Program-made: the position numbers and the translations under genes
In this document: positions 358-52,994 of the stretch, one piece after another
Layout: every line of letters starts with the position of its first letter
Numbering within the stretch: position 1 is the stretch's first letter
Assembly (NCBI GenBank): GCA_019187225.1
Contig: JABAQQ010000021.1
Span: forward strand, 85,211 to 149,210
Length of the DNA stretch: 64,000 nt
Direction: 5' to 3'
Source of the DNA: Saprospiraceae bacterium
GTDB taxonomy: Bacteria > Bacteroidota > Bacteroidia > Chitinophagales > Saprospiraceae
Notes under the pieces: generated by a model
Told to the model about the DNA's origin: nothing
Seen by the model: only the letters and a program-made list of their open reading frames with translations
Databases searched by the model: none

Positions 358-401
358 GTAACCCAGGTAAATTTTCACCCCGCCGCCCCACCCGACCTTT
401 G
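358..401 (+). promoter_or_regulatory. Palindrome-26-TTTG promoter, copy 1
   Basis: GTAAC-CCAG-GTAAA (358-371) is followed by exactly 26 nt and then TTTG (398-401), 28 nt before ATG 430 and 73 nt before ATG 475. The same geometry recurs at 4692, 12404, 17043 and, on the minus strand, 52951-52994. TTTG is the core of the Bacteroidota -7 box. A palindrome centred about 33 nt upstream of it fits a class II activator site. The binding protein is inferred, not shown. Confidence 0.6.
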
Positions 402-474
402 CCTCATTCAATTCAAAAAATCGCTCCGCATGATACATAATTCATTAACAGTCAACGAAAACGAAGACCAGGTT

Positions 475-1032
475 ATGAACGCCAAACAAGGTACCATCCT
501 CATCGCCGCCCAAATGGCCGGCCTGCTCGAACGCCTCGACGAAGTCACGTTCACCCGTCCTCTGCCACTCTTTCACGGCAGCACCATCGGGCAACACTTC
601 CGGCACATCCTCGAGTTCTATACCTGCCTGTTCGAGGGCGTTTTGCCGGCACGGGTGGATTACAGCGGCCGGAAGCGCAACCACGCCATCAGCGAAAAAC
701 CCGGCGTCGCATTGGCCGTGCTCGACTACATCGCCGACGCCGTGAAGCGGCAGGACGAACACCAATGGCTCAATGTGGAAAGCGAATTTTCCGACGAAGT
801 TGTCGCCCACGTTCAGCGCCCGGTGTACATGTCGAGCATGGGCCGCGAATTGCAATACGCTTTCGATCACGCGGTACACCACCTGGCGATCATTCGCATG
901 GGGCTGGAGGTGTATTTCCCTGAAATTCAGGTGGATGAAGATTTGGGCGTGGCGCCTTCGACTTTAAAATACAAAAAAGAAGGAAGAAAAATCCGGCTCG
1001 GAGACGCGATTCCGAAGACGGTGTATGGATAA
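475..1032 (+). CDS. DinB-like four-helix protein
   Basis: A 185-residue product with the spacing of the DinB/YfiT-like putative metalloenzyme superfamily. A first helix carries STIGQHFRHILEFY, and a later helix carries AFDHAVHHLAIIRM. Together these supply the three histidines that usually bind a divalent metal. Such proteins are cytoplasmic and often act as thiol-dependent transferases, but the substrate cannot be told from sequence. An in-frame ATG at 430 would add 15 residues (MIHNSLTVNENEDQV) that do not resemble the family core, so I prefer the ATG at 475. The gene follows one of the palindrome-26-TTTG promoters. A repeat hairpin separates it from the debranching enzyme. Confidence 0.75.
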   Translation: MNAKQGTILIAAQMAGLLERLDEVTFTRPLPLFHGSTIGQHFRHILEFYTCLFEGVLPARVDYSGRKRNHAISEKPGVALAVLDYIADAVKRQDEHQWLNVESEFSDEVVAHVQRPVYMSSMGRELQYAFDHAVHHLAIIRMGLEVYFPEIQVDEDLGVAPSTLKYKKEGRKIRLGDAIPKTVYG

Positions 1033-1122
1033 TGTTGATAAAGGTTGATGAAGGACGATAACGTAGAGTACACCCCGCAGATTTATCAACATTTATCAAC
1101 ATTTATCAACCCTTATCAACCA
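1033..1122 (+). repeat. Intergenic inverted repeat of TTGATAA/TTATCAA words
   Basis: Left side: GTTGATAA and GTTGATGA words. Right side: four ATTTATCAAC-type decamers, the reverse complement of the left word. The centre holds GATAACGTAGAGT (1057-1069), which recurs at 9047-9059 in an otherwise similar element. The right side ends 17 nt before the next ATG. The element could fold into an imperfect hairpin in the mRNA. Confidence 0.75.
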
Positions 1123-1139
1123 ATAAATTTTCCCTAACC

Positions 1140-3182
1140 ATGATTTCATTTAAAAACACACATCCCGATTTTCAGGAACTCACCTCGAAGGAGTGGTTGC
1201 TGACCAACGGCATTGGCGGGTACGCTTCATCCTCCGTCATCGGCGCCAACACCCGGCGTTATCACGGCTTGCTGGTGGCTTCCCTCAACCCGCCGACCGC
1301 CCGCACCGTCATGGTGTCGAAAGTGGAAGAGTGCATCGTGTTCAACCGCGATTGTGCCTTCGGCTTGTCGAGCAATCAATACCCTGGCGCATTGCATCCG
1401 CAGGGTTTTCAATACTTCAAATTTTTTGAACGGAAACCACTGCCACGTGTCAAATTCGAAGCGCACGGCCATCATTTGCTGAAGACGGTGTTTATGGTAC
1501 ATGGCTCCAACACCACCATTATAGAATACCAAAACACGGGCGATACCACTTTCAAACTACGCCTTACACCCTTGTTCGTTCACCGCGACTATCATGCACT
1601 GAGTAGAGAAAACAATTTCGACGATTATTGGATGAGGCCGCAAAATGGTTGTTATGTGCTCTATGCGCATTATGGCGCGCCACCTTTGTATTTCAATTTC
1701 AGTTCCGGAGAATTTTCGGAGAGCCGCCACTGGTTCAAAAACCTCGAGTACATCCGCGAACGGGAGCGCGGTCTTGATTACCGCGAAGACGCTTTTTCCG
1801 TCGCCAATATTGACGTCGTGCTAAAACCCGGCGCGAAGGCGCATCTGATTTTTTCCACCGATGAAAAAATGGCGAAAGTCGACCCGGAAATGCTGAAGAT
1901 CAAAGAATTGGAGCGTTTGGAGCAAATTGCACCGAAAAACGAGGGAGATTCTTTTTTACGGGATTTGATGTTGGCGGGAGAGCAGTTCATTGTGCGGCGC
2001 AACAGCACGGACGGCTACTCTCTCATTGCGGGCTTCCATTGGTTTGCCGATTGGGGGCGCGATACGATGATCGCCATGCGCGGCCTCACGATCGCCACCG
2101 GCAAACGGGAGGTTTCAAAATCCATCCTCGAAACCTTTCTTCACTCGGTGAACAGAGGAATATTGCCCAACCGCTTCCCCGATAATCCCGGCGACGCAGT
2201 GGAATACAATACCATTGATGCGACACTGTGGTTATTCGTGGCGCTGTACGAATACCATCAGAAGTTTCAGGATTTGAGTTTTATCGCGGAGCATCTCGAT
2301 ACGCTGAAGGATATTCTGGAATATCACATCGCCGGCACGCGCTACAATATCCACGTCACCCCTGAAGGATTTCTTGCCGGCGGCGAAGGTCTGGCACAAC
2401 TCACCTGGATGGACGCCCGCATAGGCGACTATGTGGTGACGCCACGCCACGGTTGTCCTGTAGAGATTCAGGCACTGTGGTTCAATGCGTTGCGTATTTA
2501 CCAGTATTTTGCCGGAACACTCGGAAAACCTTATGAAAAATACCAGGCCATCGGCGATTCGCTGCGGGTTCATTTTAAGAAATACTTCGTTCGCCCGAAC
2601 GGAAGCCTTAACGACGTCGTCAAATTCAGCGACCAACTGCCCGAAAGTTCGGACCCCGCCGCAGATACTTCTGTTCGCCCCAACCAAATCTACGTCGTCA
2701 GCCTGCCATTTTCTTTGCTCGAAAAGGACGCGGAAATGCGCGTGGTGGAAATCGTGCGCCAACACCTTCTGACCGATTACGGTTTGCGTACACTGTCGCC
2801 GGAGCATCCGGATTTCAAACCGCTATATGGTGGTAGCCCTTGGGAACGGGACACAGCTTATCACCAGGGCACTGTATGGCCTTTCCTGATCGGCGAGTAT
2901 ATCACGGCATTTTTAAAAGTCAATGACTGGTCGGAAAAGGCTCAAAAAGAAGTGTTTGCATTGCTGGAACCTTTAAAAAAGCATTTTTACCAAAACGACT
3001 GCATCCTCGGCATTTCCGAAATTTTCGATGGGAAAATGCCGCGCGCAGGCAAAGGCACAGTACATCAGGCCTGGTCGGTCGGAGCAGTCCTGAAAATTTT
3101 ACTCGATCTGAAAAGCCGCCAGAAAAAAGGCCGCCGCCATTCGCTAATTCCTTTTTCAGAAATAAAGTCCATGATTTTTTGA
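1140..3182 (+). CDS. Glycogen debranching enzyme (amylo-alpha-1,6-glucosidase family)
   Basis: A 680-residue protein of the bacterial/archaeal glycogen debranching type. It has an N-terminal beta-rich domain opening with KEWLLTNGIGGYASSS and an (alpha/alpha)6 C-terminal domain. Diagnostic stretches are FHWFADWGRDTMIAM near residue 298, TWMDARIGDYVVTPRHG near 421, and SPWERDTAYHQGTVWPFLIG near the end. The Asp residues of the WGRD and WMDA motifs belong to the conserved active-site region of this family. The enzyme is cytoplasmic and hydrolyses alpha-1,6 branches of glycogen. Its length is typical. The stop lies at the edge of a repeat hairpin, so the last few residues may be recently altered. 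Confidence 0.92.
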   Translation: MISFKNTHPDFQELTSKEWLLTNGIGGYASSSVIGANTRRYHGLLVASLNPPTARTVMVSKVEECIVFNRDCAFGLSSNQYPGALHPQGFQYFKFFERKPLPRVKFEAHGHHLLKTVFMVHGSNTTIIEYQNTGDTTFKLRLTPLFVHRDYHALSRENNFDDYWMRPQNGCYVLYAHYGAPPLYFNFSSGEFSESRHWFKNLEYIRERERGLDYREDAFSVANIDVVLKPGAKAHLIFSTDEKMAKVDPEMLKIKELERLEQIAPKNEGDSFLRDLMLAGEQFIVRRNSTDGYSLIAGFHWFADWGRDTMIAMRGLTIATGKREVSKSILETFLHSVNRGILPNRFPDNPGDAVEYNTIDATLWLFVALYEYHQKFQDLSFIAEHLDTLKDILEYHIAGTRYNIHVTPEGFLAGGEGLAQLTWMDARIGDYVVTPRHGCPVEIQALWFNALRIYQYFAGTLGKPYEKYQAIGDSLRVHFKKYFVRPNGSLNDVVKFSDQLPESSDPAADTSVRPNQIYVVSLPFSLLEKDAEMRVVEIVRQHLLTDYGLRTLSPEHPDFKPLYGGSPWERDTAYHQGTVWPFLIGEYITAFLKVNDWSEKAQKEVFALLEPLKKHFYQNDCILGISEIFDGKMPRAGKGTVHQAWSVGAVLKILLDLKSRQKKGRRHSLIPFSEIKSMIF

Positions 3183-3270
3183 TGTTGGATTTTTTGACGT
3201 TGGACAATGGACAATAAACATGCGTCAAATGTCAATTGTCAAAAAATCCAACGTCAAAAAGTCCAACATC
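3181..3270 (+). repeat. Inverted repeat of TTGGACG words between genes
   Basis: A 24-nt left arm (3181-3204, beginning GATGTTGGA) matches the reverse complement of 3247-3270 at 23 of 24 positions. The loop is 42 nt. The left arm overlaps the stop codon of the debranching-enzyme gene, and the right arm ends 28 nt before the ATG of the YHS gene. Confidence 0.85.
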
Positions 3271-3298
3271 CACTCATTCATTTTCAAACATCAGAACC

Positions 3299-3850
3299 AT
3301 GAAATTTACACTCATCGTCATCCTCGGCGTAGCCATCGCGGCTGCCCTGAATTCAACCGGCAAACCGAACGAATACACAGGCGACACGCTTTCCGGCAAT
3401 CTGCAATCCGAAATCCGCCATCCGCAATCATCGGATAATCCGCGCACCAAACACTTCCGCCTCGATAAAAACCGCGTGGCCATAGACGGCTATGATCCGG
3501 TCTCATACTTTAAGGGTGGACCCAAAAAAGGCAGTACGGCCCAGGCTTTTGACTACAACGGCGTGGTCTATCACTTCGCCAATGCTGCCAACCTGGCCGA
3601 ATTCAAAACCAATCCCGGCAAATACGAACCTGTTTGGGGCGGTTGGTGCGGCCATGCTATGGCCCTGCGCGGCGAAAAGGTGGAGATCAATCCGGAGTGT
3701 TACAAAATCGTGAATGGCCGCAACGTCCTGTTTTTCAAATCTTTTTACGCCAACGCTTTGACCAACTGGGAAAAGGAGATCAAAAAGACACCTGAAAATA
3801 CCCTGATGGCAAAGGGCGATGATTTTTGGGCGAAGACGCTTTTGAAATAA
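3299..3850 (+). CDS. Secreted YHS-domain protein
   Basis: A 183-residue product with a short hydrophobic N-terminal segment (MKFTLIVILGVAIAAAL), read as a signal peptide. A YHS-type domain follows: NRVAIDGYDPVSYF, then AFDYNGVVYHFANAANLAEF, PGKYEPVWGGWCGHAMA and NGRNVLFF. YHS domains are small, often metal-associated modules, and this type is exported. The segment NLQSEIRHPQSSDN just after the signal peptide is encoded by an ATCCGAA-type repeat (about 3409-3432) and is probably a low-complexity insertion. ATG 3299 is preferred over the frame opening at 3236, because the upstream stretch is pure intergenic repeat. A second secreted YHS protein lies at 17.2 kb. Confidence 0.75.
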   Translation: MKFTLIVILGVAIAAALNSTGKPNEYTGDTLSGNLQSEIRHPQSSDNPRTKHFRLDKNRVAIDGYDPVSYFKGGPKKGSTAQAFDYNGVVYHFANAANLAEFKTNPGKYEPVWGGWCGHAMALRGEKVEINPECYKIVNGRNVLFFKSFYANALTNWEKEIKKTPENTLMAKGDDFWAKTLLK

Positions 3851-3851
3851 A

Positions 3852-3916
3852 ACACATAGGCACATAGAGCACATAGAAATTTTATAGGGAAACCATGTGT
3901 TCTATGTGCCTATGTT
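3852..3916 (+). repeat. Inverted repeat of CACATAG words
   Basis: The left arm (from about 3853) contains CACATAGGCACATAGAGCAC. The right arm (3894-3915) contains TCTATGTGCCTATGT, its near reverse complement. The loop is about 17 nt. It lies between the YHS gene and the MIP channel gene, ending 13 nt before the ATG. Confidence 0.8.
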
Positions 3917-3928
3917 AAACCTCATTCA

Positions 3929-4666
3929 ATGCTACATGTACTTAAAAACAACTGGCCCAACTACCTCATCGAGGCCTGGGCGCTGGGGATGTTTATGCTC
4001 TCGGCTACTTTTTTTGCCGGCTTGCTGGGATTGCCGGGTTGGCCGGGACATGGCATCGAAGATCCGTTTGTACGGCGCCTGCTCATGGGCCTGGCAATGG
4101 GATTGACCGCCGTCGGACTGATCTACTCCGGCTGGGGCCGCCGCTCAGGGGCACACATGAATCCCGCTTTTACGCTCACTTTTTTGTTTCTGAAAAAAAT
4201 TGACCGGCGCAACGCGATTTGGTACATCCTCTTTCAATGCCTTGGCGGAGCTGCGGCCATGTTGCTGTTCAAAAGTCTGTTTCCGGCCTTTGTTGCCGCG
4301 CCGGAAGTCAACTATGTGCAAACCCAACCGGGTATGTTGGGAGTGGCGGGTGCATTCGTCGCTGAGGCGCTTATCTCGTTCGGGCTTGTCCTAACCGTCT
4401 TGTATTCAAGTAATTTTGAAAAAACAGCACCCTACACGGGCGTTTTTGCCGGCTGCCTCGTGATGCTGTATATTACAATTGAAGACCCGTTTTCCGGGAT
4501 GTCCATGAATCCCGCGCGGACGCTTGCTTCGGCGGTAGCGGCGGGCAATTTCATGCACTTTTGGATTTACCTGACAGCGCCTTTGATCGGAATGTTGGGC
4601 GCAGCGAAAGTGTGGAAGGTATGGATTTGCCGGAAGGCGGAGTTTCGGTGCGGGTATCACGGATAG
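3929..4666 (+). CDS. MIP family channel (aquaporin / glycerol-facilitator type)
   Basis: A 245-residue polytopic membrane protein with both half-helix motifs of the MIP family: HMNPAFTLTF near residue 76 and SMNPARTLASA near 191. Each sits at the expected place within two three-helix repeats. The family forms passive channels for water or small neutral solutes in the inner membrane. The selectivity-filter residues were not assigned, so water versus glycerol is left open. The tail after the last helix (KVWICRKAEFRCGYHG) is short. It is followed by a palindrome-26-TTTG promoter for the next gene. Confidence 0.88.
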   Translation: MLHVLKNNWPNYLIEAWALGMFMLSATFFAGLLGLPGWPGHGIEDPFVRRLLMGLAMGLTAVGLIYSGWGRRSGAHMNPAFTLTFLFLKKIDRRNAIWYILFQCLGGAAAMLLFKSLFPAFVAAPEVNYVQTQPGMLGVAGAFVAEALISFGLVLTVLYSSNFEKTAPYTGVFAGCLVMLYITIEDPFSGMSMNPARTLASAVAAGNFMHFWIYLTAPLIGMLGAAKVWKVWICRKAEFRCGYHG

Positions 4667-4691: not shown

Positions 4692-4735
4692 GTAACCTGC
4701 GTAATTTTTCGCAAGACAAATCACCCTGACTTTTG
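4692..4735 (+). promoter_or_regulatory. Palindrome-26-TTTG promoter, copy 2
   Basis: GTAAC-CTGC-GTAAT (4692-4705), a spacer of exactly 26 nt, then TTTG (4732-4735). The ATG of the SDR gene is at 4811. The -7 region reads GACTTTTG, lacking the T at the first position of the TAnnTTTG consensus, which suits an activator-dependent promoter. Confidence 0.65.
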
Positions 4736-4810: not shown

Positions 4811-5509
4811 ATGAAATCCATCATCGTCACCGGCGCGTCCGGCAACATGGGACAGGCTGTCGTAAAACGTTTCGCACAAGACGGCCAAAAAGTGTACGCT
4901 GTGCTTGGTCTTGGCGAGAATTCCCGCCTGTTCAGCGAGAGCGCCATGGCCCAAAACATTGATACGCAATTCCTCAACCTGACCGACGAAACCGTATCGG
5001 AAGGGTACGTAAAAACCATCGTTGCCAAAGACCCCGCCGTGGAAGCGGCTGTATGCATCGTGGGCGGTTGGCAACCCGGAACGCTCTCTGAAACAACAGG
5101 TTACGAATTGGACAAGATGCTAAAACTCAATTTTTACACCGCTTTCAACATCGCCAAACCGCTCATGGAATACTTCGAGCGGCGAGGCGGCGGGCAGTTC
5201 ATCTTTATCGGCGCGCGACCGGCCATTAACCCCGCGGAAGCGAGAAATCAGGTGGCCTACGCCCTATCGAAATCGTTGGTGTTCCGCCTGGCAGAGATCA
5301 TTAACGACCAGGGAAAATTCAAAAACATCCGCGCCAGCGTGGTCATACCCTCCGTGCTCGACACACCCCAGAACCGTGCCGCCATGCCCGACGCCGATAT
5401 GAGCGATTGGGTCACACCTGAATCCGCCGCCGATACCATTGCGTTCATCCTGAGCGAAACGGGCAGCGCCCTGCGGGAGACGGTGATCAAACTGTACAAT
5501 CAAGCGTGA
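4811..5509 (+). CDS. Short-chain dehydrogenase/reductase
   Basis: A 232-residue SDR. The N-terminal Rossmann motif is VTGASGNMGQAVVKRF, the strand/turn AAVCIVGGWQPG follows, and the active-site motif is YALSK (Tyr and Lys three residues apart). The residues after the active site (VIPSVLDTPQNRAAM) correspond to the SDR substrate loop. Cytoplasmic NAD(P)-dependent oxidoreduction is expected; the substrate is unknown. The gene starts 76 nt after the TTTG of a palindrome-26-TTTG promoter. A repeat hairpin separates it from the next gene. Confidence 0.88.
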   Translation: MKSIIVTGASGNMGQAVVKRFAQDGQKVYAVLGLGENSRLFSESAMAQNIDTQFLNLTDETVSEGYVKTIVAKDPAVEAAVCIVGGWQPGTLSETTGYELDKMLKLNFYTAFNIAKPLMEYFERRGGGQFIFIGARPAINPAEARNQVAYALSKSLVFRLAEIINDQGKFKNIRASVVIPSVLDTPQNRAAMPDADMSDWVTPESAADTIAFILSETGSALRETVIKLYNQA

Positions 5510-5510
5510 G

Positions 5511-5576
5511 ATGGTTGTTGGTTGTTGGTTCTTAGTTCGCAGAACCGACAACTAATAACCATGAACTAACAACCAT
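5511..5576 (+). repeat. Inverted repeat of TTGTTGG words
   Basis: ATGGTTGTTGGTTGTTGG on the left is mirrored by GAACTAACAACCAT on the right, with 12 of 13 outer bases pairing. The right arm runs into the ATG of the DUF1622 gene at 5575, so a hairpin would occlude that start codon. Confidence 0.75.
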
Positions 5577-5919
5577 GGAAACCTACCGTCTCATCCTCCT
5601 GCAACGCCTTTCCAACGGCATCGAATTGCTGAGCGCCGTAGTGCTGTTGGTCGGATTTGCCAAAGGCATGTGGGGCTTTTTGCTCCACGAATGGCGCGCC
5701 ATGCATTCCCATTCCGGAATGTCGCCCGAAAATGTGTCGGCCCTCCGCCCGATGGTGGGCAACTACATCCTGCTGGGTCTGGATTTTTACATCGTATCAG
5801 ACATTCTCGCCACCATGCTGCATCCCGAATGGAACGAACTCATCAGCCTGGCTGTCATCGGTTTACTCCGCACGACGATAGGGTATTTTTTGGGGAAAGA
5901 AATTGCTGTTGAAAAATAG
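5575..5919 (+). CDS. DUF1622 family membrane protein
   Basis: A 114-residue integral membrane protein with three hydrophobic segments (around residues 12-30, 62-82 and 88-108). The stretch NYILLGLDFYIVSDILATML is characteristic of DUF1622. The function is unknown for the family. The start codon sits inside the right arm of a hairpin. Downstream lies a long array of heptameric repeats. Confidence 0.8.
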   Translation: METYRLILLQRLSNGIELLSAVVLLVGFAKGMWGFLLHEWRAMHSHSGMSPENVSALRPMVGNYILLGLDFYIVSDILATMLHPEWNELISLAVIGLLRTTIGYFLGKEIAVEK

Positions 5920-5925
5920 GGCATT

Positions 5926-6165
5926 GGACGTTGGACAGTTGGACGTTGGACAGTTGGACGTTGGACTGTTGGACGTTGGACTGTTGGACGTTGGACTGTT
6001 GGACGTTGGACATTGGATCGTTGAAAACCGGATTTTTGAAGATCAGCATGTCGCATAAAACACACGCGTCCAATTTCCAATGTCCAACAGTCAAATGTCC
6101 AATCGTCAAACGTCCAATGTCCAATCGTCAAACGTCAAACGTCCAATGTCCAATCGTCAAATGTC
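5926..6165 (+). repeat. Long array of TTGGACG heptamers and their reverse complement
   Basis: From 5926 to about 6020, TTGGACG/TTGGACA words follow one another with 7-8 nt spacing. After a unique centre (about 6021-6066), the complementary word GTCCAAT/GTCAAAC repeats up to about 6160. The whole forms a giant imperfect palindrome of about 240 nt between the DUF1622 gene and a small membrane protein gene. No protein is credible here, although frames are open because the words contain few stop codons. Confidence 0.85.
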
Positions 6166-6172
6166 TTCTGAA

Positions 6173-6379
6173 ATGGAAACCATCCGCTTTCTCGTCAATG
6201 TCTTCTATCTCTACCTGCTGGCAGGCGCCGTTTTCGCGGCGCTGTTCGTTTGGCGCGGCGCTGCTGCACTCGATGAAGCCGCCAAAGGTATCTCCTGGAA
6301 AACCCGCGCCCTGCTATTTCCCGGTAGTGCAGCGCTGTGGCCGGTGTTGTTGCGCAAGTGGCTAAAGGATGGTCATTAA
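6173..6379 (+). CDS. Small membrane protein of unknown function
   Basis: A 68-residue product starting METIRFLVNVFYLYLLAGAV. It has one strong transmembrane helix (residues about 5-25) and a weaker hydrophobic stretch around ALLFPGSAALWPVLL. I do not recognise a family. ATG 6173 follows directly after the repeat array. An in-frame ATG at 6161 would add only four residues. It probably belongs with the neighbouring membrane genes at 5.6, 6.5 and 7.0 kb, all on the plus strand. Confidence 0.6.
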   Translation: METIRFLVNVFYLYLLAGAVFAALFVWRGAAALDEAAKGISWKTRALLFPGSAALWPVLLRKWLKDGH

Positions 6380-6440
6380 AAGTCATTACGGTCATTTTGG
6401 TAATGATAATCCCCGAAGTCATCCCGACGAACTCCGGCGC

Positions 6441-6480
6441 AATCCGAAATCCGCAATCCGAAATCCGAAATCCGCAATCG
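6441..6480 (+). repeat. Tandem AATCCGA/AATCCGC heptamers
   Basis: Five to six consecutive copies of AATCCGA or AATCCGC run up to the base before the next ATG (6482). The same word recurs at 6924-6962 after that gene, and inside the YHS gene at about 3409-3432. Confidence 0.85.
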
Positions 6481-6481
6481 A

Positions 6482-6925
6482 ATGACACTGCAATTAAGAA
6501 AAATCCATCGCTACGCCTGGTTTTCGCTGGCCGTCCTGCTCCCCGCTGGTTGGATGGCTGCAATATGGGCAATCCCAGGAGAACCTTGGCAAATACCCGT
6601 CCGACCGGAGCAACCATCCCCATTGCCTGTCATGTTGCAATCGAAAGAATCCGGGGATTTTATCATCAACCTGCGGCAAGACAGCACGGGTAAACACAGA
6701 CAAGTCGAAATTTTCATCAAGAAACCGCTTTCAAATCCGAACACGACGGTTACGGCAGGCGATGGACGGCAGACGTTAGACGGCGCAACTGTGCTCGGTT
6801 TGCTCGGCACACGCGGCGTTTGGCGCTTCGACCTGGATACCCTTATCACCCACAACAAGCCGTTGCAACTCCGGTTAGAAGATAAAATCCGGGGCCGGAC
6901 AATCCGAACCATAACATTCGAATAA
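6482..6925 (+). CDS. Membrane-anchored hypothetical protein
   Basis: A 147-residue product with an N-terminal transmembrane helix (WFSLAVLLPAGWMAAIWAI) followed by a polar, probably periplasmic domain. No family was recognised. It is flanked on both sides by identical AATCCGA-type heptamer arrays, and it immediately precedes the ferric-reductase/Rieske gene on the same strand. A role linked to that membrane redox protein is possible but only by position. The C-terminal part (VLGLLGTRGVWRFDLDTL) looks like a beta-sandwich fold, which is an impression rather than a match. Confidence 0.6.
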   Translation: MTLQLRKIHRYAWFSLAVLLPAGWMAAIWAIPGEPWQIPVRPEQPSPLPVMLQSKESGDFIINLRQDSTGKHRQVEIFIKKPLSNPNTTVTAGDGRQTLDGATVLGLLGTRGVWRFDLDTLITHNKPLQLRLEDKIRGRTIRTITFE

Positions 6926-6962
6926 TCCGAAATCCGAAATCTGAAATCTGAAATCCAAAATC
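6924..6962 (+). repeat. Tandem AATCCGA/AATCTGA heptamers
   Basis: Five copies of a heptamer (AATCCGA, AATCTGA variants) fill the gap between the hypothetical gene and the Rieske gene, ending 3 nt before its ATG. They are in the same orientation as the array at 6441-6480. Confidence 0.85.
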
Positions 6963-6964
6963 AT

Positions 6965-8056
6965 ATGTCTGTCATCTACGATCCGGTTCACTGGACGCCG
7001 CATAAAAACGTGTACGACAAGATCCTGTTGGCTTTTGTCGGTCTTTATCTCGTCTTGTTTGGCGCATTGGAAGCGATACTGCATCCGCAGGTCACAGCAG
7101 AGACGCTCGTCATCCGCGCGACTGGCACTCTCGCTTTCCTGATGTTGCACATCATTCTCTGCATCGGACCCTTGTGCCGCCTCGACAAGCGTTTTTTGCC
7201 CTTGCTCTACAACCGGCGGCATTTAGGCGTGACGATGTTCCTGATCGGTCTGACGCATGGTGTGTTTAATATCGTGCAATTTCACACACAGGGTAATGTG
7301 GACCCACTCGTGTCATTGTTCGTTTCCAACACCCACTACGGCTCGCTGGTGCGCTTTCCCTTTCAGTCGCTCGGCTTTTTTGCCTTGATTATCTTGTTTT
7401 TAATGGCCGCGACAAGCCACGATTTTTGGCTGAAAAATCTCACGCCGCCCGCTTGGAAAGTCCTTCATATGGGTGTATATGCGGCCTATGCAATGATCGT
7501 GATGCACGTCATGCTCGGAGTGATACAGTTGGAAAAATCGCCGGTTTTGATTGGCCTCACGGGTTTGGGAATGTTCAGCGTCATCGGCCTGCACGTGGTG
7601 GCGGCGTGGAAACAAATGAAAAAAGACCAGGCAGCACGACCGTCCGGCGTCCACTGTCCAATCTCCAATATCCCTCAAGGTTTCGTGTACGCCTGCGAAG
7701 TCGCCGACATACCCGACAACCGCGCCAAAATGCTGATCATTCATAGCGAGAACATCGCCCTTTTCAAATACGGCAACAAACTCTCAGCCGTGCACAACCT
7801 CTGTAAACACCAGAACGGCCCGCTCAGCGAAGGCAAGATCATTGACGGTTGCATCACCTGTCCCTGGCACGGCTATCAATACCGCCCGGAAGACGGCCAA
7901 TCGCCGCCGCCATTCAAAGAAATGGTTTGCACTTACGACGTCATGGTAGAGGGGACTAAAGTTTATGTGAACCCCCAACCATACCCGGAAGGCACGGCAA
8001 GGCCGCCGGCGACGATCCACTCGTCATGGAAGTCATTAGAAGTTATTTCGCAATAA
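6965..8056 (+). CDS. Ferric-reductase-like membrane domain fused to a Rieske [2Fe-2S] domain
   Basis: A 363-residue protein. Residues about 20-220 contain six hydrophobic helices with histidines in the places expected for haem b in MsrQ/YedZ-like ferric reductase domains (HIILCIGP, GLTHGVFNIVQFH, LHMGVYAAYAMIVMHVMLG). The C-terminal part is a Rieske domain with CKHQNGPLSEG near residue 279 and CPWHGY near 298, supplying the Cys-X-His and Cys-X2-His cluster ligands. Electron transfer across the inner membrane is expected; donor and acceptor are unknown. The linker GVHCPISNIPQGF is encoded by GTCCACT/GTCCAAT-like words and looks like an in-frame repeat insertion. Confidence 0.85.
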   Translation: MSVIYDPVHWTPHKNVYDKILLAFVGLYLVLFGALEAILHPQVTAETLVIRATGTLAFLMLHIILCIGPLCRLDKRFLPLLYNRRHLGVTMFLIGLTHGVFNIVQFHTQGNVDPLVSLFVSNTHYGSLVRFPFQSLGFFALIILFLMAATSHDFWLKNLTPPAWKVLHMGVYAAYAMIVMHVMLGVIQLEKSPVLIGLTGLGMFSVIGLHVVAAWKQMKKDQAARPSGVHCPISNIPQGFVYACEVADIPDNRAKMLIIHSENIALFKYGNKLSAVHNLCKHQNGPLSEGKIIDGCITCPWHGYQYRPEDGQSPPPFKEMVCTYDVMVEGTKVYVNPQPYPEGTARPPATIHSSWKSLEVISQ

Positions 8057-8065
8057 AAGAAAAAC

Positions 8066-8140
8066 GATCCGGCTGGCGCGAGTCCGGCTGGCGCGAGTCT
8101 CCGACTCGTGCAAACGATCTCCGCGTCTCCGACGCGACTA
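8066..8140 (+). repeat. Short direct and inverted repeats upstream of next gene
   Basis: CCGGCTGGCGCGAGT occurs twice in tandem (about 8070-8098). It is followed by CTCCGACTCGTG and CTCCGACGCGAC, which partly complement it. It is another example of word-repeat DNA filling a gap, ending about 15 nt before the ATG at 8156. Confidence 0.65.
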
Positions 8141-8155
8141 CAAAATACTGAAACC

Positions 8156-9007
8156 ATGCAAGAAGAATTTTATATCGGCTGGCAGACGGAAGCGCCGCCT
8201 TCGTTCGCCAGGGTTGTCCGACGATCCGTGACGGGTTTGTGTGTACTCGTTCCGCTGACAGCGATTTTGATCACTTATTTCCAGACCGGCTTTTCCAACG
8301 GCACATTCGAGTTCGGGAAAAAAACAGAGTTGGAAGGTATTTTTTCCGAAAACCCTTTTCCGTTTCTAACCATTGAAAGCGGAAAAGATGCGACAGGGAA
8401 CCCGGTTTTTCAGAAGATATTGCTGGTGGGGAAGGGCAAGTTTGGGTTTCAAAAGGCAGAGGGTGGAGGGTGGAGGGTAGAGGGGGAGCCCGCCTTCGCT
8501 GAAGCTATGGCGGGCAAGGGCGTCAAAGTCTCCGGCTTTCTGATCTACAACGACGGCAAAACGGCGATGGAGGTAGAATCCATTGAAATTCAAGAAGAAG
8601 CGAAAGAGTTTGAGAAACCATCCACCGTCTACCGTCCACCGTCTACCGTCCATCGTCTACCGTCCGCCGTTCAATTGCGCGGCGAGATCACCGACCCGAA
8701 ATGCCTGCTCGGCGTGATGAACCCGGGCCAGGGGAAACCGCACCGCGACTGCGCAGTGCGTTGCCTCGCCGGCGGTATTGCGCCGATGCTGAAAGTGACC
8801 GGCGCCAGCGGCGAAACCGAATATTACCTTCTCGCCGGCGCCAACGGTGAAGCCCTCAACGACCGGCTCCTCGAATATGCCGGCGACGGCGTACAGATCT
8901 GCGGACGGCTGGAACAACAGGATGACTGGTGGGTGCTGTATGCCGATCCGGCAACGATCCGGCGGGTGAACAAAGGGACGCTGAATGTGGGGGTTATGTG
9001 CAATTGA
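8156..9007 (+). CDS. Membrane-anchored protein of unknown function with repeat-derived inserts
   Basis: A 283-residue product (MQEEFYIGWQTEAPPSF...) with one transmembrane helix (GLCVLVPLTAILITYF). The polar C-terminal domain contains CLLGVMNPGQGKPHRDCAVR. No family was recognised with certainty. Two stretches are clearly foreign to the fold. GGGWRVEGEPAFAEAMAGKG is encoded by GGGTGGA words plus a CCGCC...GGCGG palindrome (8488-8515). PSTVYRPPSTVHRLPSAVQ is encoded by GTCTACC heptamers (8620-8670). Both keep the frame open. The gene follows the Rieske fusion closely and may share its role. Confidence 0.65.
   Translation: MQEEFYIGWQTEAPPSFARVVRRSVTGLCVLVPLTAILITYFQTGFSNGTFEFGKKTELEGIFSENPFPFLTIESGKDATGNPVFQKILLVGKGKFGFQKAEGGGWRVEGEPAFAEAMAGKGVKVSGFLIYNDGKTAMEVESIEIQEEAKEFEKPSTVYRPPSTVHRLPSAVQLRGEITDPKCLLGVMNPGQGKPHRDCAVRCLAGGIAPMLKVTGASGETEYYLLAGANGEALNDRLLEYAGDGVQICGRLEQQDDWWVLYADPATIRRVNKGTLNVGVMCN
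8488..8515 (+). repeat. REP-like palindrome inside a coding sequence
   Basis: GCCCGCCTTCGCTGAAGCTA continues into TGGCGGGC. The outer 7 bases pair exactly (GCCCGCC with GGCGGGC). It is read in frame as EPAFAEAMAGKG. A related CCGCCTTCGCT...GGCGG sequence occurs in the intergenic region near 15200-15265. This suggests a mobile or dispersed palindrome, comparable in behaviour to palindromic elements that insert into genes. Confidence 0.6.
8620..8670 (+). repeat. GTCTACC heptamer array inside a coding sequence
   Basis: Seven consecutive copies of CCGTCTA/CCGTCCA-type heptamers are translated as STVYRPP STVHRLP SAV. Because 7 is not a multiple of 3, all three frames of this strand encode the same cyclic heptapeptide and none contains a stop codon. 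The same word forms the intergenic giant palindrome at 27.3-27.8 kb. Confidence 0.85.
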
Positions 9008-9116
9008 TAAAATGGTTGATAAAAGTTGATAAGAATTGATGAGGTTGATAACGTAGAGTGCGCCGCGATTTATCAACTCTTATCAACCTTCATAAACCCT
9101 CCTCAACCTTTATAAA
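9008..9116 (+). repeat. Intergenic inverted repeat of TTGATAA/TTATCAA words, second copy
   Basis: GTTGATAA-type words on the left and TTATCAAC/TTATAAAC words on the right surround GATAACGTAGAGT (9047-9059), the same core as at 1057-1069. It ends 13 nt before the ATG of the esterase gene. Confidence 0.8.
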
Positions 9117-9129
9117 CAATTCTTTTATT

Positions 9130-10548
9130 ATGAAAACAATCACCGCTCATCTTCATTCTCTTCCACCCCAAACCCCACCCGGCGCGGCGCTTTTCCTCGC
9201 CGGCAATGTCAATGGCTGGCAGCCGGACGACGAACGTTTTCGCTTTCAGCCGAACGGCGACGGCTCCTATCGTCTTGATTTTCAGGCCGATCTGGATACA
9301 CTCGAATACAAGATCACACGCGGCCACTGGTCGGCTGCCGAAGGCGATGCCGAGGGCAGGGAATTGTCCAACCGCGTTGCCAAAATCAGCGCCGCAGAAA
9401 ATGAGCTCTGGATGCGCATAGAATCCTGGACGGATCTGTATCAAAAAACGCAGGGATACGACCTGCCGGAAAACATTATGCTGCTCCATCCCGATATTTA
9501 TATGCCGCAACTGGAGCGCAGCCGCCGCATCTGGGTTTGTTTGCCGCCCGATTATTGGACCGATCCCAAACGACGCTATCCGGTCGTGTATATGCAGGAC
9601 GGCCAAAACCTCTTCGATAATCCCGAAGCCCTGTTCGGCTCCTGGGGGATTGACAAGGCGATGAACCGCCTGTTTATAAATGAACAGATGCCTTTCAACA
9701 GCGATCATACAGTGACTGCCGTCTACCCTCAATCGTCCGCCGTCAACCGTCAACCGATTATCATCGGGATAGAAAACGGCGGGCAGCATCGCATCGCTGA
9801 ATATTCTCCCTGGCGAAATGCCCGGCATGGCGGCGGAGAGGGCGCTCAATATCTTGATTTTGTGTGCGATACGCTCAAACCCTTTGTGGACGAACACCTG
9901 CGCACTTTACCGGGACGAGAACATACCGCCATCATGGGCAGCAGCATGGGCGGCCTGATCTCACTGTATGCAGCGGTCGAAAAACCGAAGGTATTCGGCA
10001 TGGCGGGTGTGTTTTCACCCTCTTTGTGGTTCTCCAAAGAGGTTTATCAAATGGTCAAAAACCGCAAGCCGGACTTATCCGTAAGGATATTACTCATGGC
10101 GGGTCAGCAGGAAAGCCGGAATATGGTGGCCGATCTGCTCGATCTGTACGAGACATTGCTCGAAGCAGGTCATATAGAAGAAAACCTGCATTACGATCTG
10201 CACTCTGATGGCGTACACAGCGAATGGTTTTGGGCGCGCGAATTTGAACACGCCTTGCGCTGGTTGTTCGGCGACATGCCCGGACATGAACGGGGCGGCA
10301 TTACAGGTGATCTGATAAAATTTCAGGTAGACACGAAAGCGAAAGAACTGATCGTCCATGTCTCCCCCAAAATAGCGGAACCGCGTCTGGAGATTCGCGA
10401 CTACTGCCACAACCGGCAGTTCCATCACCCGCTCGATCACCATGATAACCGAATCCCTTATGCAGAATGGGAAAACTGCATTTACTCCTTACGTTTGCAC
10501 TCGAAGGGAGACCTGGTTTTTTCCCGGAGGGTGACGGTGGGGGAATGA
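9130..10548 (+). CDS. Esterase (Fes/esterase D family) with N-terminal carbohydrate-binding-like domain
   Basis: A 472-residue protein. Residues about 5-100 resemble a CBM48/starch-binding-like beta domain (FLAGNVNGWQPDD, YRLDFQADLDTLEYKI). The rest is an alpha/beta hydrolase of the putative esterase family: RRYPVVYMQDGQNLF, the nucleophile elbow MGSSMGGLISLYAA (Ser in GSSMG), and a C-terminal DGVHSEWFW containing the likely catalytic His. No signal peptide is evident, so it may be cytoplasmic. The stretch AVYPQSSAVNRQP is encoded by GTCTACC/GTCAACC heptamers and is probably an inserted loop. Substrates in this family range from siderophore esters to acylated sugars. Confidence 0.8.
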   Translation: MKTITAHLHSLPPQTPPGAALFLAGNVNGWQPDDERFRFQPNGDGSYRLDFQADLDTLEYKITRGHWSAAEGDAEGRELSNRVAKISAAENELWMRIESWTDLYQKTQGYDLPENIMLLHPDIYMPQLERSRRIWVCLPPDYWTDPKRRYPVVYMQDGQNLFDNPEALFGSWGIDKAMNRLFINEQMPFNSDHTVTAVYPQSSAVNRQPIIIGIENGGQHRIAEYSPWRNARHGGGEGAQYLDFVCDTLKPFVDEHLRTLPGREHTAIMGSSMGGLISLYAAVEKPKVFGMAGVFSPSLWFSKEVYQMVKNRKPDLSVRILLMAGQQESRNMVADLLDLYETLLEAGHIEENLHYDLHSDGVHSEWFWAREFEHALRWLFGDMPGHERGGITGDLIKFQVDTKAKELIVHVSPKIAEPRLEIRDYCHNRQFHHPLDHHDNRIPYAEWENCIYSLRLHSKGDLVFSRRVTVGE

Positions 10549-10767: not shown

Positions 10768-11442
10768 ATGAAGAGTGTCTGGTTCTTCGAAGAAGTGGAT
10801 TTGTACGAGATACTTTGCCCGTACAAATACAGCGACCACATCAAAGCGCATCCGTTGAGTTGTTACAACAAAACGGATTTCCTGTTCATGGAGGGCGATC
10901 CGGTTCGGGAGATATTTCTGGTGGCCGAAGGCAGGGTAAAAGTAGGTTTTTATGACAACGATGGCAACGAACAAGTCATCGCCTTCCTCGGTCGCGGCGA
11001 GATACTGGGCGAAATGGCTTTGTTCGGCCAACAACGCTACAAGGAATTTGCCCAAGCTGTTACCGATCGCACGATGATCTGCAAACTCCGGGTAGAAAAA
11101 GCGCAGGAACTCGTACGCGATTTTGTGCCTTTTTCGCTCACCATCACCAAGCGTATGGGCGAACGCATGCAAAAATTTGAACGCCGCCTCCAGATACTCC
11201 TGTTCAAAGATGCCCGCCAGCGACTTGTGGAATTTTTAAAGGATTTGTGCCGCGACATTGGTACGCCCTACCGCACCGGTGTAAAGATCATGCTCGACAT
11301 CACACAAAGCGATATTGCAGCGCTCATTGGCGCCTCGCGCAAGACGGTATCGCTGTTGTTCACCGACCTGGAAGAAGCAGGGCTGGTGAAATTTTACGGA
11401 AGGAAGGAGATCTACGTGGCGGATGTGGGGAAACTGGCCTGA
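10768..11442 (+). CDS. Crp/Fnr family transcriptional regulator
   Basis: A 224-residue regulator. The N-terminal cyclic-nucleotide-binding fold includes FMEGDPVREIFLVAEGRVKV and LGRGEILGEMALFG. A dimerisation helix and a C-terminal winged helix follow (TQSDIAALIGASRKTVSLLF near residues 175-200). In the recognition helix the positions equivalent to E. coli Crp Arg180, Glu181 and Arg185 read Arg, Lys and Leu. Binding to the canonical TGTGA or TTGAT half-sites is therefore not expected. No FNR-type N-terminal cysteine cluster is seen. It is the only Crp/Fnr gene in the window and the obvious candidate for the GTTAC-N4-GTAAC sites. It converges with the HipA-like gene, with 2 nt between their stops. 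Confidence 0.9.
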   Translation: MKSVWFFEEVDLYEILCPYKYSDHIKAHPLSCYNKTDFLFMEGDPVREIFLVAEGRVKVGFYDNDGNEQVIAFLGRGEILGEMALFGQQRYKEFAQAVTDRTMICKLRVEKAQELVRDFVPFSLTITKRMGERMQKFERRLQILLFKDARQRLVEFLKDLCRDIGTPYRTGVKIMLDITQSDIAALIGASRKTVSLLFTDLEEAGLVKFYGRKEIYVADVGKLA

Positions 11443-12322: not shown

Positions 12323-12366
12323 CAAAGATACGGCGAGGCAAGGCAACTGGCTACCCCACTGGTAAC
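12323..12366 (-). promoter_or_regulatory. Half-site variant of the palindrome-26-TTTG promoter (copy 6)
   Basis: On the minus strand: GTTAC-CAGT-GGGGT (12366 down to 12353), exactly 26 nt, then TTTG. The -7 box TATCTTTG (12330 down to 12323) matches the full TAnnTTTG consensus. Only the first half-site is intact. It is placed at the same distance as in the five better sites. Confidence 0.4.
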
Positions 12367-12403: not shown

Positions 12404-12447
12404 GTTACCCCCGTAACATCCCACCCTCCGCGTCCCCCGCACCTTTG
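12404..12447 (+). promoter_or_regulatory. Palindrome-26-TTTG promoter, copy 3
   Basis: A perfect GTTAC-CCCC-GTAAC palindrome (12404-12417), exactly 26 nt, then TTTG (12444-12447). The GMC oxidoreductase starts at 12514. It is divergent from the HipA-like gene promoter, about 40 nt away. Confidence 0.7.
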
Positions 12448-12513: not shown

Positions 12514-14046
12514 ATGAATTTCGACATCATCATCATCGGCACCGGCGCAGGCGGCGGTACCCTGGCTTACAAACTCGCCCCCACCGGCAAACGCATCCTC
12601 ATCCTCGAACGCGGCGACTTCCTGCCCAAGGAAAAAGAAAACTGGGACCCGCTGGAAGTAGCCAAAGGCCGCTACAAAACCACTGAAATGTGGCGCGACG
12701 CGGCAGGCAAAGAATTTTCCCCCTACCAGCACTACTGGGTCGGTGGCAACACCAAAATGTACGGCGGCGCTTTGCTCCGCTTGCGCGAACGCGACTTCGA
12801 AGCCACTGAACACTTCGACGGACTTTCTCCCGAATGGCCGCTGAAATACCGGGATTTCGCGCCCTGGTACGACATGGCCGAGCAGCTATATGCCGTACAC
12901 GGCACACGCGGCCTCGACCCTACCGAGCCGCCGGCGAAAAACGGCTACCCCTACCCTGCCCTGCCGTTCGAGCCGCGTATGGTTGAAGTCACCGGGCATA
13001 TCCGCAGCCAGGGTTACCACCCCGCACCGATCCCACTCGCCATCCGCCTGCCGCAGGACCTGAACGGCCGCACCAACGACCGGCTTCACGTCGAACTCTA
13101 CGACGGCTACCCCGACCCCACCGGCGCCAAGGCCGACAGCCACGTCGTGGGTGTGCAGGGCGCCTTGCAATACCCCAATGTGACCTTGCTGCGCAACCGC
13201 AAGGCATTGAAAATCAATACCGACTCGAGCGGTCGCCGGGCATCGAGCGTTACCGTCGCCTGCGAGGGCATGGAAGAAACCTACCACGCCGAGACGATTG
13301 TGGTGGCTTGCGGCGCCATCAATTCCGCCGCCCTGCTGCTTCGATCGGCCAACGGCAAACACCCCAACGGGCTTGCCAACAGCAGCGGTCAGGTGGGTCG
13401 CAATCTCATGATACACAACAACGGCATCGTGCTGGCCTATTCGGCCAGGCCGAATCCTTCGACGTTTCAAAAGGCGATCCTGATACCCGATTTCTACCAC
13501 GGCGCCGACGGCGATCCGCGTCCTTTAGGTGCGATCCAGAATATGGGCAAAGCCGACCCGCTCCTGCTCGCCGACGCCTTAGGCGACGACCTCGGCAAAG
13601 ACGGTAAAGACGCGGCGCACTTTGCCAGCCATATCATTGATTACTTCATCACGGCGGAAGACTTGCCATTCGCAGAAAACCGGGTGACGGTAGACACGGA
13701 TGGAAACATCCAACTTCACTACACACCCAACAACCTCGAAGCCTATCGCCGACTGCGCGAAAAACTCATCCAAATCATGGATCGAGTGGCTGAAAACGAA
13801 GGTGTCGGCGGCACTACCAGGTACTACGGCTTCAAACTCGGGATCGGTGGCGTGAGCCATCAAAACGGCACCTGCCGCTTCGGGCATGATCCGCGCACTT
13901 CGGTGCTCGACCTGAACTGTAAAGCCCACGATCTCGACAATCTCTACGTCGTGGATACCTCGTTCTTCCCCTCGTCCGGCGCCGTGAACCCGTCCCTGAC
14001 AGCGATGGCAAATGCGCTGCGGGTAGGGGAAATTTTGAGTCATTGA
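12514..14046 (+). CDS. GMC family FAD-dependent oxidoreductase
   Basis: A 510-residue flavoprotein. The FAD-binding motif is IIIIGTGAGGGTLAYKLA at residues 5-22, then ILERGD, the YWVGGNTKMYGGALLR segment that contacts FAD, GGVSHQNGTCRFGHDP near 445 with the likely active-site His, and the C-terminal LYVVDTSFFPSSGAVNPSL. The family oxidises alcohols or sugars. No Tat or Sec signal peptide is present, so it is cytoplasmic unless co-exported. It lies at the head of a plus-strand oxidation cluster. A nearly perfect palindrome-26-TTTG promoter precedes it, and a GTCATT repeat follows. Confidence 0.9.
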   Translation: MNFDIIIIGTGAGGGTLAYKLAPTGKRILILERGDFLPKEKENWDPLEVAKGRYKTTEMWRDAAGKEFSPYQHYWVGGNTKMYGGALLRLRERDFEATEHFDGLSPEWPLKYRDFAPWYDMAEQLYAVHGTRGLDPTEPPAKNGYPYPALPFEPRMVEVTGHIRSQGYHPAPIPLAIRLPQDLNGRTNDRLHVELYDGYPDPTGAKADSHVVGVQGALQYPNVTLLRNRKALKINTDSSGRRASSVTVACEGMEETYHAETIVVACGAINSAALLLRSANGKHPNGLANSSGQVGRNLMIHNNGIVLAYSARPNPSTFQKAILIPDFYHGADGDPRPLGAIQNMGKADPLLLADALGDDLGKDGKDAAHFASHIIDYFITAEDLPFAENRVTVDTDGNIQLHYTPNNLEAYRRLREKLIQIMDRVAENEGVGGTTRYYGFKLGIGGVSHQNGTCRFGHDPRTSVLDLNCKAHDLDNLYVVDTSFFPSSGAVNPSLTAMANALRVGEILSH

Positions 14047-14078
14047 AGGTCATTGAGGTCATTAAAAAACATCCAGCC

Positions 14079-15188: not shown

Positions 15189-15295
15189 CGCTCTAAAAAA
15201 ACCGCCTTCGCTTTTATCCGCCAAAGCTTGAACGACGGCGGAAAAACCACGGCGGATAAACACGAAATCGTTTTCATACAGGGCTTTTAATTGGA

Positions 15296-15331: not shown

Positions 15332-15356
15332 TATTCGTAAAATGCGCGAATCAAAA

Positions 15357-17731: not shown

Positions 17732-17755
17732 AAACACTTCATTAAAAAACAAGCC

Positions 17756-45296: not shown

Positions 45297-45297
45297 T

Positions 45298-51118: not shown

Positions 51119-52150
51119 ATGAATACGATGAAACCTTTATATTGCTTCCTGTTGCTGGCGCTGGCGCTCTCTGCGGGGGCTTGCAAAAACAAGTCGCGTT
51201 CCGGAGGGGAGGAAGGCGCAGCAACGCTTGTCGATGCCCAGGCTGCCTCTTTGCCGACCGACACCATCGAACGGCCGCTGGCGCTGATCGCGGTGACGCA
51301 GCCCGTCACCATCGGCGGGTATTTCAAATTTATGGACAAGCTGGTTGAGCAATACGATACGCTGGTCCCTTATGATTTGAGCGAGCACCTGTTGGTGCGC
51401 GCCAATCCCTGGCTGATAGATACCCTGGAAGAAACCGATTATTACCGCCAGATGGCGCGCGGCAATTTTGTGTTCGACCAGCGTAAAATGGTCGTTCTGC
51501 ATCCGGGCGATACCCTGCGGGTGCCGGGACCAAAAACTGCCGCCGCGATATGGTCCAGCATCAACAACACCCGACTCGATATCAACATCCCGGCATTCCG
51601 CTTGCGCATCGTGGAAGGAGACAGCATTTTATACGATTTTCCCTGCCGCGTCGGCAAAAACACCGAAAAATTCCTGGTTGTTGCCGGCCACAAAGTGGAT
51701 CTGCGCACACACCCCGGCGAGGGTGAGATCATCCGCGTCAACCGGGAACCTGTTTTTACCGACCCCGTCACGGGTGAGAAATTTAAATTCACCAAACGGG
51801 ACGACCGCAGGACCACGCGCATGCCCATCATTCCCTGGTTGGAACCCATCATTGACAGCGTCCGCTACGGACACATGATCCACCCGACCACTAACCCGAG
51901 AACAGTAGGCAGGGCAGCTTCCAACGGATGCATCGGATTGAAAGAAGCCGATGCCTGGCGCGTTTACTACTACGCGCCCGTCGGAACGAAGGTGATCATA
52001 CGTTATGATCTCATGGAGATCAGTCCCTCCGGCGATACCCTCCGGTACGAAGATGTGTACGCTCCGGCAAAAGCCAGGAAAAAAGCCGGCATCCAGGCTG
52101 CATGGTTCCCCTTTCCCAAACGGGCCGGTGAATGCTGGTGCGAGCCTTGA
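51119..52150 (+). CDS. L,D-transpeptidase (YkuD domain) lipoprotein
   Basis: A 343-residue product with a lipoprotein signal (YCFLLLALALSAGAC, Cys at about 22). The YkuD domain is in the second half. The catalytic motif is GHMIHPTTNPRTVGRAASNG followed by CIGLKEADAW (His near 255, Ser/Cys near 269-271), which matches HxxxN...SxGC. It crosslinks peptidoglycan or attaches lipoprotein to it in the periplasm. The adjacent upstream DNA is a GTTTGA word repeat. ATG 51119 is preferred; an in-frame ATG at 51128 is a close alternative. Confidence 0.87.
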   Translation: MNTMKPLYCFLLLALALSAGACKNKSRSGGEEGAATLVDAQAASLPTDTIERPLALIAVTQPVTIGGYFKFMDKLVEQYDTLVPYDLSEHLLVRANPWLIDTLEETDYYRQMARGNFVFDQRKMVVLHPGDTLRVPGPKTAAAIWSSINNTRLDINIPAFRLRIVEGDSILYDFPCRVGKNTEKFLVVAGHKVDLRTHPGEGEIIRVNREPVFTDPVTGEKFKFTKRDDRRTTRMPIIPWLEPIIDSVRYGHMIHPTTNPRTVGRAASNGCIGLKEADAWRVYYYAPVGTKVIIRYDLMEISPSGDTLRYEDVYAPAKARKKAGIQAAWFPFPKRAGECWCEP

Positions 52151-52151
52151 T

Positions 52152-52928
52152 TTAATCATTGTTCCGGTCTTCCACCGGCTCAATAGCGGGTCTCCATTTG
52201 TCCGGCATACACTGGTAAAACACTTTTGAATTGTAACAAATCTGGAACTCATCCACTTCCCGGTATCCTTCCGTGTTTTTCAGCGTGAATTTACGCAACT
52301 GCCCCTGAAAATCCCATTCGTTCACGGTGCGCTGATCGGTATATTCATCTATGATCGGCTTGATCTCCCGACCGTTGTACACGAGGAAATAGGCGCCGAT
52401 GCGCACCAAGTTTCCTTCCGTAATGGCAAGGCGGTCGTCGTACACCACTTCGAACAGATCGAAGTAGTCTTTTTTTTGCACCACACTGTCTATCAATGTT
52501 TTCAGCGGAAAAATGGTCATCAACGGAAGGGTCGTTTCGTAACCCGCCGCCCAATCGAAGCCGTACCCGCCCATGATATAAGCCGTGTCTTTATCCATAG
52601 TGTAGCAGAAATGTGCGGCAGAAAACTGATCGGCGACGCCCGGTGGGAAAAAACTGAGCGGCAGGACATAGGTCTTTTTCGCTTTTTCGTCCACCACGAT
52701 CATGTCGCAGTTGTAAACGCCTTCTTCATCCGGTGATTCCGGGTCGGAAAACTTGCCGCCCACCACGACTTTATAGCCCTCAGACTCGAAAACGGCCGCA
52801 CCTTCCATGGCGGGCAGGTCAGCGCCGGGAAATTCATAAATCGCGATGGAGTCGGAAAAACAGACGAACTGGCTATGGGCTGTTTGAATGCCCGCCAGAA
52901 ACAAGGTGATAACAAAGATGATACGCAT
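52152..52928 (-). CDS. Secreted protein of unknown function, palindrome-regulated
   Basis: A 258-residue product with signal peptide MRIIFVITLFLAGIQTAHSQ. Segments such as AAVFESEGYKVVVGGKFSDP and AYIMGGYGFDWAAGYETTLP recall kelch/beta-propeller-like blades, but no family was assigned. It converges with the L,D-transpeptidase gene, whose stop is 2 nt away. The fifth palindrome-26-TTTG promoter ends 22 nt upstream of its start codon. It might therefore belong to the same regulon as the redox genes of 0.4-17 kb. Confidence 0.65.
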   Translation of the reverse strand: MRIIFVITLFLAGIQTAHSQFVCFSDSIAIYEFPGADLPAMEGAAVFESEGYKVVVGGKFSDPESPDEEGVYNCDMIVVDEKAKKTYVLPLSFFPPGVADQFSAAHFCYTMDKDTAYIMGGYGFDWAAGYETTLPLMTIFPLKTLIDSVVQKKDYFDLFEVVYDDRLAITEGNLVRIGAYFLVYNGREIKPIIDEYTDQRTVNEWDFQGQLRKFTLKNTEGYREVDEFQICYNSKVFYQCMPDKWRPAIEPVEDRNND

Positions 52929-52950
52929 AACGACCGAGATTTTTGTGCCA

Positions 52951-52994
52951 CAAAAATGGGATATGGCGCGGGGGCAGGGAATGACCTGGGTTAG
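52951..52994 (-). promoter_or_regulatory. Palindrome-26-TTTG promoter, copy 5 (minus strand)
   Basis: On the minus strand CTAAC-CCAG-GTCAT (52994 down to 52981), exactly 26 nt, then TTTG (52954 down to 52951). The CCAG centre equals that of copy 1. Start codon of the regulated gene at 52928. Confidence 0.55.

Follow-up and report, generated by a model that had tools for sequence, protein, structure and literature searches.

Class II promoters activated by CRP in E. coli carry the palindrome TGTGA-N6-TCACA at -41.5, and the fifth base of each half-site from the centre is read by Glu181 and Arg185. The cyanobacterial regulator NtcA, in the portion of PMC3898017 used here, has the site GTA-N8-TAC at about -41.5. 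For Bacteroidota, whose TAnnTTTG box is located at -12 to -5 in the excerpt used of PMC9723704, a Bacteroides MalR matrix has been applied to Saprospiraceae Crp/Fnr homologues (PMC8510549, excerpt). That study covers the same bacterial group and protein family as ours, but its matrix is from Bacteroides and no GTTAC motif was met in the excerpt. The words GTTAC and GTAAC occur in PMC5387054, on zinc regulation, and the open-licence literature yielded no published site for such Crp/Fnr proteins in this group. Here we describe such a site in a window of 64,000 nucleotides (nt) from a Saprospiraceae bacterium (assembly GCA_019187225.1, contig JABAQQ010000021.1; C20:85211-149210 of a 7.18-Mb genome): a palindrome, TGTWAC-N4-GTAAN, standing exactly 26 nt before TTTG. 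Judged from sequence, the sites are very probably class II Crp/Fnr-activated promoters of a stress regulon, whose regulator would be the product of the Crp/Fnr-family gene at 10768-11442.

The resemblance to the E. coli CRP system extends to the regulator family, the dimeric palindrome, the class II position and an AAAT flank; the half-site here is nevertheless TGTTAC-N4 and the box is TTTG, not TATAAT. The GT...AC outer bases and the -41.5 position are shared with NtcA, and NtcA is one of the solved relatives (8h3v, E 1e-20), whereas the genes here are of stress type rather than nitrogen genes and the core promoter box differs.

The sites and candidates in the window are:

358..371, + strand: Crp-type palindrome GTAACCCAGGTAAA, before DinB-like, GDE, YHS and aquaporin genes; also before the orthologue in G007, G009 and G031
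394..401, + strand: -7 box GACCTTTG, 26 nt past the palindrome, TTTG at 398-401; predicted start 406
4692..4705, + strand: Crp-type palindrome GTAACCTGCGTAAT, before the run from SDR to crp; also in G007, G009, G031, G008, G023 and L108
4728..4735, + strand: -7 box GACTTTTG; predicted start 4740
12404..12417, + strand: perfect palindrome GTTACCCCCGTAAC, before GMC oxidoreductase, VOC and CMD genes; also in G007, G009, G031, G008, G023 and L108
12440..12447, + strand: -7 box CACCTTTG; predicted start 12452
17043..17056, + strand: perfect palindrome GTTACCTGCGTAAC, before YHS, HbpS, SGL and SDR genes; also in G007, G009, G031, G008 and L108
17079..17086, + strand: -7 box GACTTTTG; predicted start 17091
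52951..52994, - strand: marginal candidate, CTAACCCAGGTCAT with 26 nt and TTTG
12323..12366, - strand: half-site of the original prediction, rejected

The original prediction had proposed one promoter class of six places (358, 4692, 12404, 17043, 52994 and 12366), each with 26 nt and then TTTG and two with perfect palindromes, and all six read directly as it stated. The class itself holds for four. A matrix trained without this genome scores sites 358, 4692, 12404 and 17043 at 41-66, and the refined pattern describes these four; 52994 and 12366 fall outside the original GTWAC-N4-GTAAN as well. The half-site at 12366, at -15.3, scores as background and is surely dropped, and 52994, whose 11.3 was reached by 0/60 simulated windows (maximum 9.9), is marginal and probably dropped. 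The HipA-like kinase is consequently unsupported as a target; no HipA-like gene was matched in the loci of relatives that were searched, nor was the gene of 52994. The shorter pattern GTWACN4GTAA has six matches in the window, two of them the same palindromes on the other strand, whereas 100 shuffles gave 0.38 on average and never more than 2. A sigma-70 TTGACA/TATAAT scan was uninformative (11 found, 13.7 in shuffles).

A genome-wide scan, which had been proposed with the original prediction, returned seven matches to the palindrome with 26 nt and TTTG: five inside C20:81342-102296 (window -3868 to 17086), spanning 21 kb around the Crp/Fnr gene, and two at C1:408445 and C25:117273. The reversed control pattern gave five matches, so the raw count is not striking by itself (the palindrome alone has 67 matches and its reversed control 357); unlike that count, the clustering, spacing and conservation are striking. 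Spacing was analysed in the six genomes with a close regulator orthologue, this one included, allowing gaps of 12-42, where a search gap of 27 corresponds to 26 nt counted after the 14-mer. Gap 27 holds 37 of the 108 matches, many of them orthologous to each other and thus non-independent; the 30 other gaps average 2.4 with a maximum of 6 (Poisson p 5e-31), and the adjacent gaps 26 and 28 hold 1 and 3. The 37 is an undercount by one, G023:C253:45730 being listed only with a nearer TTTG. Such a single distance is that of a class II Crp/Fnr promoter, and its exactness to one base is as for an activator touching the polymerase.

Among 39 sites the best consensus is TGTWACCYSSGTAAM, 22 nt, SACYTTTG. 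One gap-27 match with no conserved gene behind it (G007:C3:106235, GTAACTATTGTAAAG) was dropped from an initial 40, and its G009 counterpart (C4:475194) lies outside this set; both are counted in the 37/108. Two bases that the search did not specify are the same in 39/39 sites: the T at -1, just outside the left half-site, and the A at box position 2. Control palindromes have T at -1 in 7/33, a set that includes one true site. Position 1 of the box is G in 23 sites, C in 12, T in 3 and A in 1, TTTG itself being part of the search pattern. Columns 15-16 (-33/-32) are TT-rich, with T in 30 and 28 of 39. With the box at -12 to -5 (PMC9723704, excerpt), the palindrome centre falls at -41.5, in line with the position near -41 first proposed, and a pyrimidine-purine step stands at the predicted +1: C in 29/39, then A or G in 38/39.

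These sites precede orthologous genes of six groups, with four to seven sequences each: GMC oxidoreductase (7/7), SDR (7), YHS (6), GH63-like (6), DinB-like (4) and gene F (4), where contig JAKLJF010000048.1 is counted as one of the seven sequence sets. Their upstream flanks share only 0.39-0.53 identity. That contig (L108), recorded as a Thermoanaerobaculia metagenome-assembled genome, carries a Saprospiraceae-type cluster with the regulator and three sites, and is probably mis-binned. A one-mismatch site, TGTTACGCAGGGAAC ... GACTTTTG, is common to G007:C1:2340353 and G009:C2:711899.

The motif follows the regulator across genomes. The regulator has matches in 46 of 60 relatives and a close orthologue in six of the 60, this genome included (the five others at 79-93% identity), and exactly these six have the 26-nt form of the motif, which is absent from genomes whose matches all stay at or below 38% identity. 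One hit at a different spacing stands in a seventh genome, G020, and G009 holds an additional hit that is longer by one base. At the level of the order, the short form GTWACN4GTAA-N27-TTTG is too loose, matching at least 173/396 genomes, and a 15-base form was used, which matches 58/396 (reversed control, about 29 matches). Two or more sites of the TGTTAC type occur in 6/7 genomes with an SRKT-helix regulator (G000, G007, G009, G008, G388 and G186) and in 0/389 others; a single one occurs in 3/389 others (G314, G237 and G129, none of which has the regulator at E<=1e-42). In G224, the remaining regulator genome, a variant with TTTA for TTTG stands before a subtilase-like gene, 112 nt after crp. 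Outside the genus, four sites stand before methionine sulfoxide reductases: those of G388 precede MsrB and MsrA, and those of G186, from another family, precede two MsrB copies, each on a short contig end, which may be duplicates of a single locus. Together with the single-gap peak, the invariant A of the box and the altered recognition helix described below, this co-occurrence supports the class II Crp/Fnr geometry originally proposed.

The proposed activator is encoded as follows:

10768..11442, + strand: Crp/Fnr-family regulator, proposed cognate activator, with a cyclic-nucleotide (cNMP)-like domain and HTH_Crp; start set by orthologues
11335..11358, + strand: recognition-helix codons, SRKTVSLL

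The protein combines a cNMP-binding-like domain (PF00027, 7.5e-19) with a Crp-type helix-turn-helix (PF13545, 4.4e-14; PF00325, 1.5e-5), as members of the CRP/FNR family do, and the SRKTVSLL helix is present in all seven close orthologues read. It falls below the cut-offs of the described types: 85.1 bits against 266 for the cyclic AMP (cAMP)-CRP equivalog PRK11753, 79.8 against 244.95 for the NtcA equivalog TIGR03697 and 62.1 against 228 for the FNR subfamily PRK11161. By our own reading it has no obvious Arg-Ser of the cAMP pocket. When placed on the CRP helix SRETVGR, the regulator presumably has Arg, Lys and Leu at the three base contacts: relative to the Arg-Glu-Arg triad of cAMP-CRP, which is not matched, Arg is kept, Glu becomes Lys and Arg185 becomes Leu. 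These contacts are Arg180, Glu181 and Arg185 in the excerpt used of PMC12531629. The TGTGA half-site of CRP and TGTTA(C) differ solely at the fifth base from the centre, and a regulator in which two of the three base-contact residues of CRP are replaced would fit such an altered half-site.

The genes behind the four sites are:

430..4666, + strand, behind site 358: DinB-like 430-1032, glycogen debranching 1140-3182, YHS-like 3236-3850, aquaporin (MIP) 3929-4666
4811..10548, + strand, behind site 4692: SDR 4811-5509, DUF1622, two unknowns, Rieske/ferric reductase 6965-8056, an unknown, esterase 9058-10548
12514..15959, + strand, behind site 12404: GMC oxidoreductase, glyoxalase-like (VOC), CMD family
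17204..20921, + strand, behind site 17043: YHS lipoprotein, HbpS-like, SMP-30-like, SDR

The label of 430-1032, which has no Pfam hit, is that of the original prediction. The genes flanking crp follow largely the same order in six relatives, except that part of the SDR run is missing from G007 and that G008 has the VOC-YHS-HbpS-SGL genes on another contig. On G008:C22 (L141), sites stand before both VOC and YHS. The crp gene starts 219 nt past the esterase here, about 50-87 nt past it in four relatives and about 135 and 225 nt in two; because of the short distance, crp is probably part of the SDR transcript in most relatives. Just before crp lies a near-perfect hairpin (10684-10759, + strand; 28-bp outer stem, -51.3 kcal/mol, z -10.7). 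Given the shorter esterase-crp distance of about 50-87 nt in four relatives, it resembles a lineage-specific insertion or terminator. Arms resembling GGGGTGAAAATTTTT stand in inverted pairs at 338-381, around site 358, and at 10703-10740, in the hairpin (four matches, 0.53 expected).

One further group, gene F, is unlinked to the cluster and encodes a weakly RimK-like product. It has matches in 37/60 genomes, of which the 26 best loci were read (G028 is unreadable at a contig end). The site stands before gene F in G000, G007, G009 and G031, four of the six regulator genomes, and in 0/19 of the regulator-free genomes that could be read, the closest candidate there having three mismatches. The site at C25:117273 (L038:9274) scores highly, its own sequence being in the matrix, and lies between a sigma-factor-like gene on the opposite strand and a CotH-like gene that starts more than 400 nt downstream.

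Under the class II reading, a dimer of the 10768-11442 protein would bind TGTWAC-N4-GTAA(C/A), centred at -41.5, and would recruit the Bacteroidota housekeeping polymerase to the weak -7 box SACYTTTG, which mostly lacks the first T of TAnnTTTG. The local cluster would thereby be switched on (glycogen debranching, GH63-like, aquaporin, SDRs, GMC oxidoreductase, glyoxalase-like, YHS/HbpS and SMP-30-like genes), as would at least one unlinked gene, the weakly RimK-like one. The crp gene probably feeds back on itself, because it closely follows the esterase of the SDR run in four of six relatives, and the stimulus is probably oxidative or electrophile stress.

Several points weigh against this account. 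The half-sites and TTTG were search criteria, so that the conservation of both is partly by construction; the relatives are non-independent and the p-values overstated; and the -41.5 borrows a box position mapped in Flavobacterium. The TGTTAC-type split was chosen after viewing the order-level list, and if the TGTAAC type is counted, the regulator-free genomes G332 and G235 have three matches each. G008 and G023 carry the regulator yet no site before gene F, and there is no clear gene within 400 nt of the C25:117273 site. The matrix scan found no site directly before crp, and in this genome the long hairpin separates esterase and crp.

We considered whether the promoters are real but respond to a different transcription factor at the palindrome, with the Crp/Fnr gene being merely adjacent. 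The pairing of site and regulator is deduced from sequence, and paralogues exist: counting the regulator, the genome has five matches to it at E<=1e-15. The motif nevertheless tracks the close orthologue rather than the distant matches, the site is found together with SRKT-helix regulators in other genera too, and the site centre and half-site fit Crp-type binding, which leaves this explanation unlikely. Repression from an operator that overlaps the -33 region is less likely still: the palindrome does abut the -33 element, next to the TT-rich columns 15-16, but a repressor would not need a gap exact to one base, and the -7 boxes are weak, as those of activated promoters would be. A promoter of an extracytoplasmic (ECF) sigma factor, in which GTAAC would serve as the -35 box, could draw on the resemblance of GTAAC to ECF -35 boxes and on the sigma-factor-like gene that, by our reading, adjoins the C25 site. 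We give it hardly any credence: 26 nt to the box is far from usual ECF spacing, the T outside the left half-site is invariant, and the box carries the housekeeping TTTG.

The class II arrangement appears to extend beyond this regulon. The order-level scans also revealed TGTAAC-N4-GTAAC sites, and in 198 genomes drawn evenly from class Bacteroidia 28 of the 123 matches to this motif have TTTG 26 nt further on, the other distances averaging 3.2 with a maximum of 9 at 27 nt (p 1.6e-17). The loci are:

L266, L277, L285, L293-L313 and L144-L172: loci of the TGTAAC-N4-GTAAC motif

We read 24 of the 28 class-level sites, some of them near-identical and from related genomes. By Pfam, the first genes at 20/24 encode rhodanese, metallo-beta-lactamase plus rhodanese (persulfide-dioxygenase-like, our own label) or TauE; the other four have DUF302, DUF2490, DUF6132 and no clear gene. 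A Crp/Fnr gene is present at 10/24 loci and its helix is RVV(I/V)SR in all ten, a type also found at four order-level loci; these regulators share a single Cys, and a CC pair is present in only 3/10 of the class-level proteins. The architecture and the 26-nt spacing are the same as in the regulon described here, but the sister regulon has its own helix (RVV(I/V)SR against SRKT), comprises sulfur genes and is class-wide. It is likely that one fixed position, with the palindrome ending 26 nt ahead of the TTTG of the -7 box, serves Crp/Fnr regulators of differing recognition helix throughout the class Bacteroidia, in at least two regulons: stress (SRKT) and persulfide/sulfide (RVV(I/V)SR).

These results provide a concrete site, its probable cognate protein, a list of targets and a promoter rule, exact to one base, for an activator on the unusual Bacteroidota -7 box; they also make a class-wide persulfide regulon directly testable. 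They further offer a natural experiment on what decides which base a Crp-type recognition helix accepts as the fifth of its half-site. The targets of such regulators may be readable from sequence and, if the fixed position holds generally, the geometry would be a rule for reading, from genomes alone, where uncharacterised Crp/Fnr proteins of Bacteroidota bind and which genes they target.

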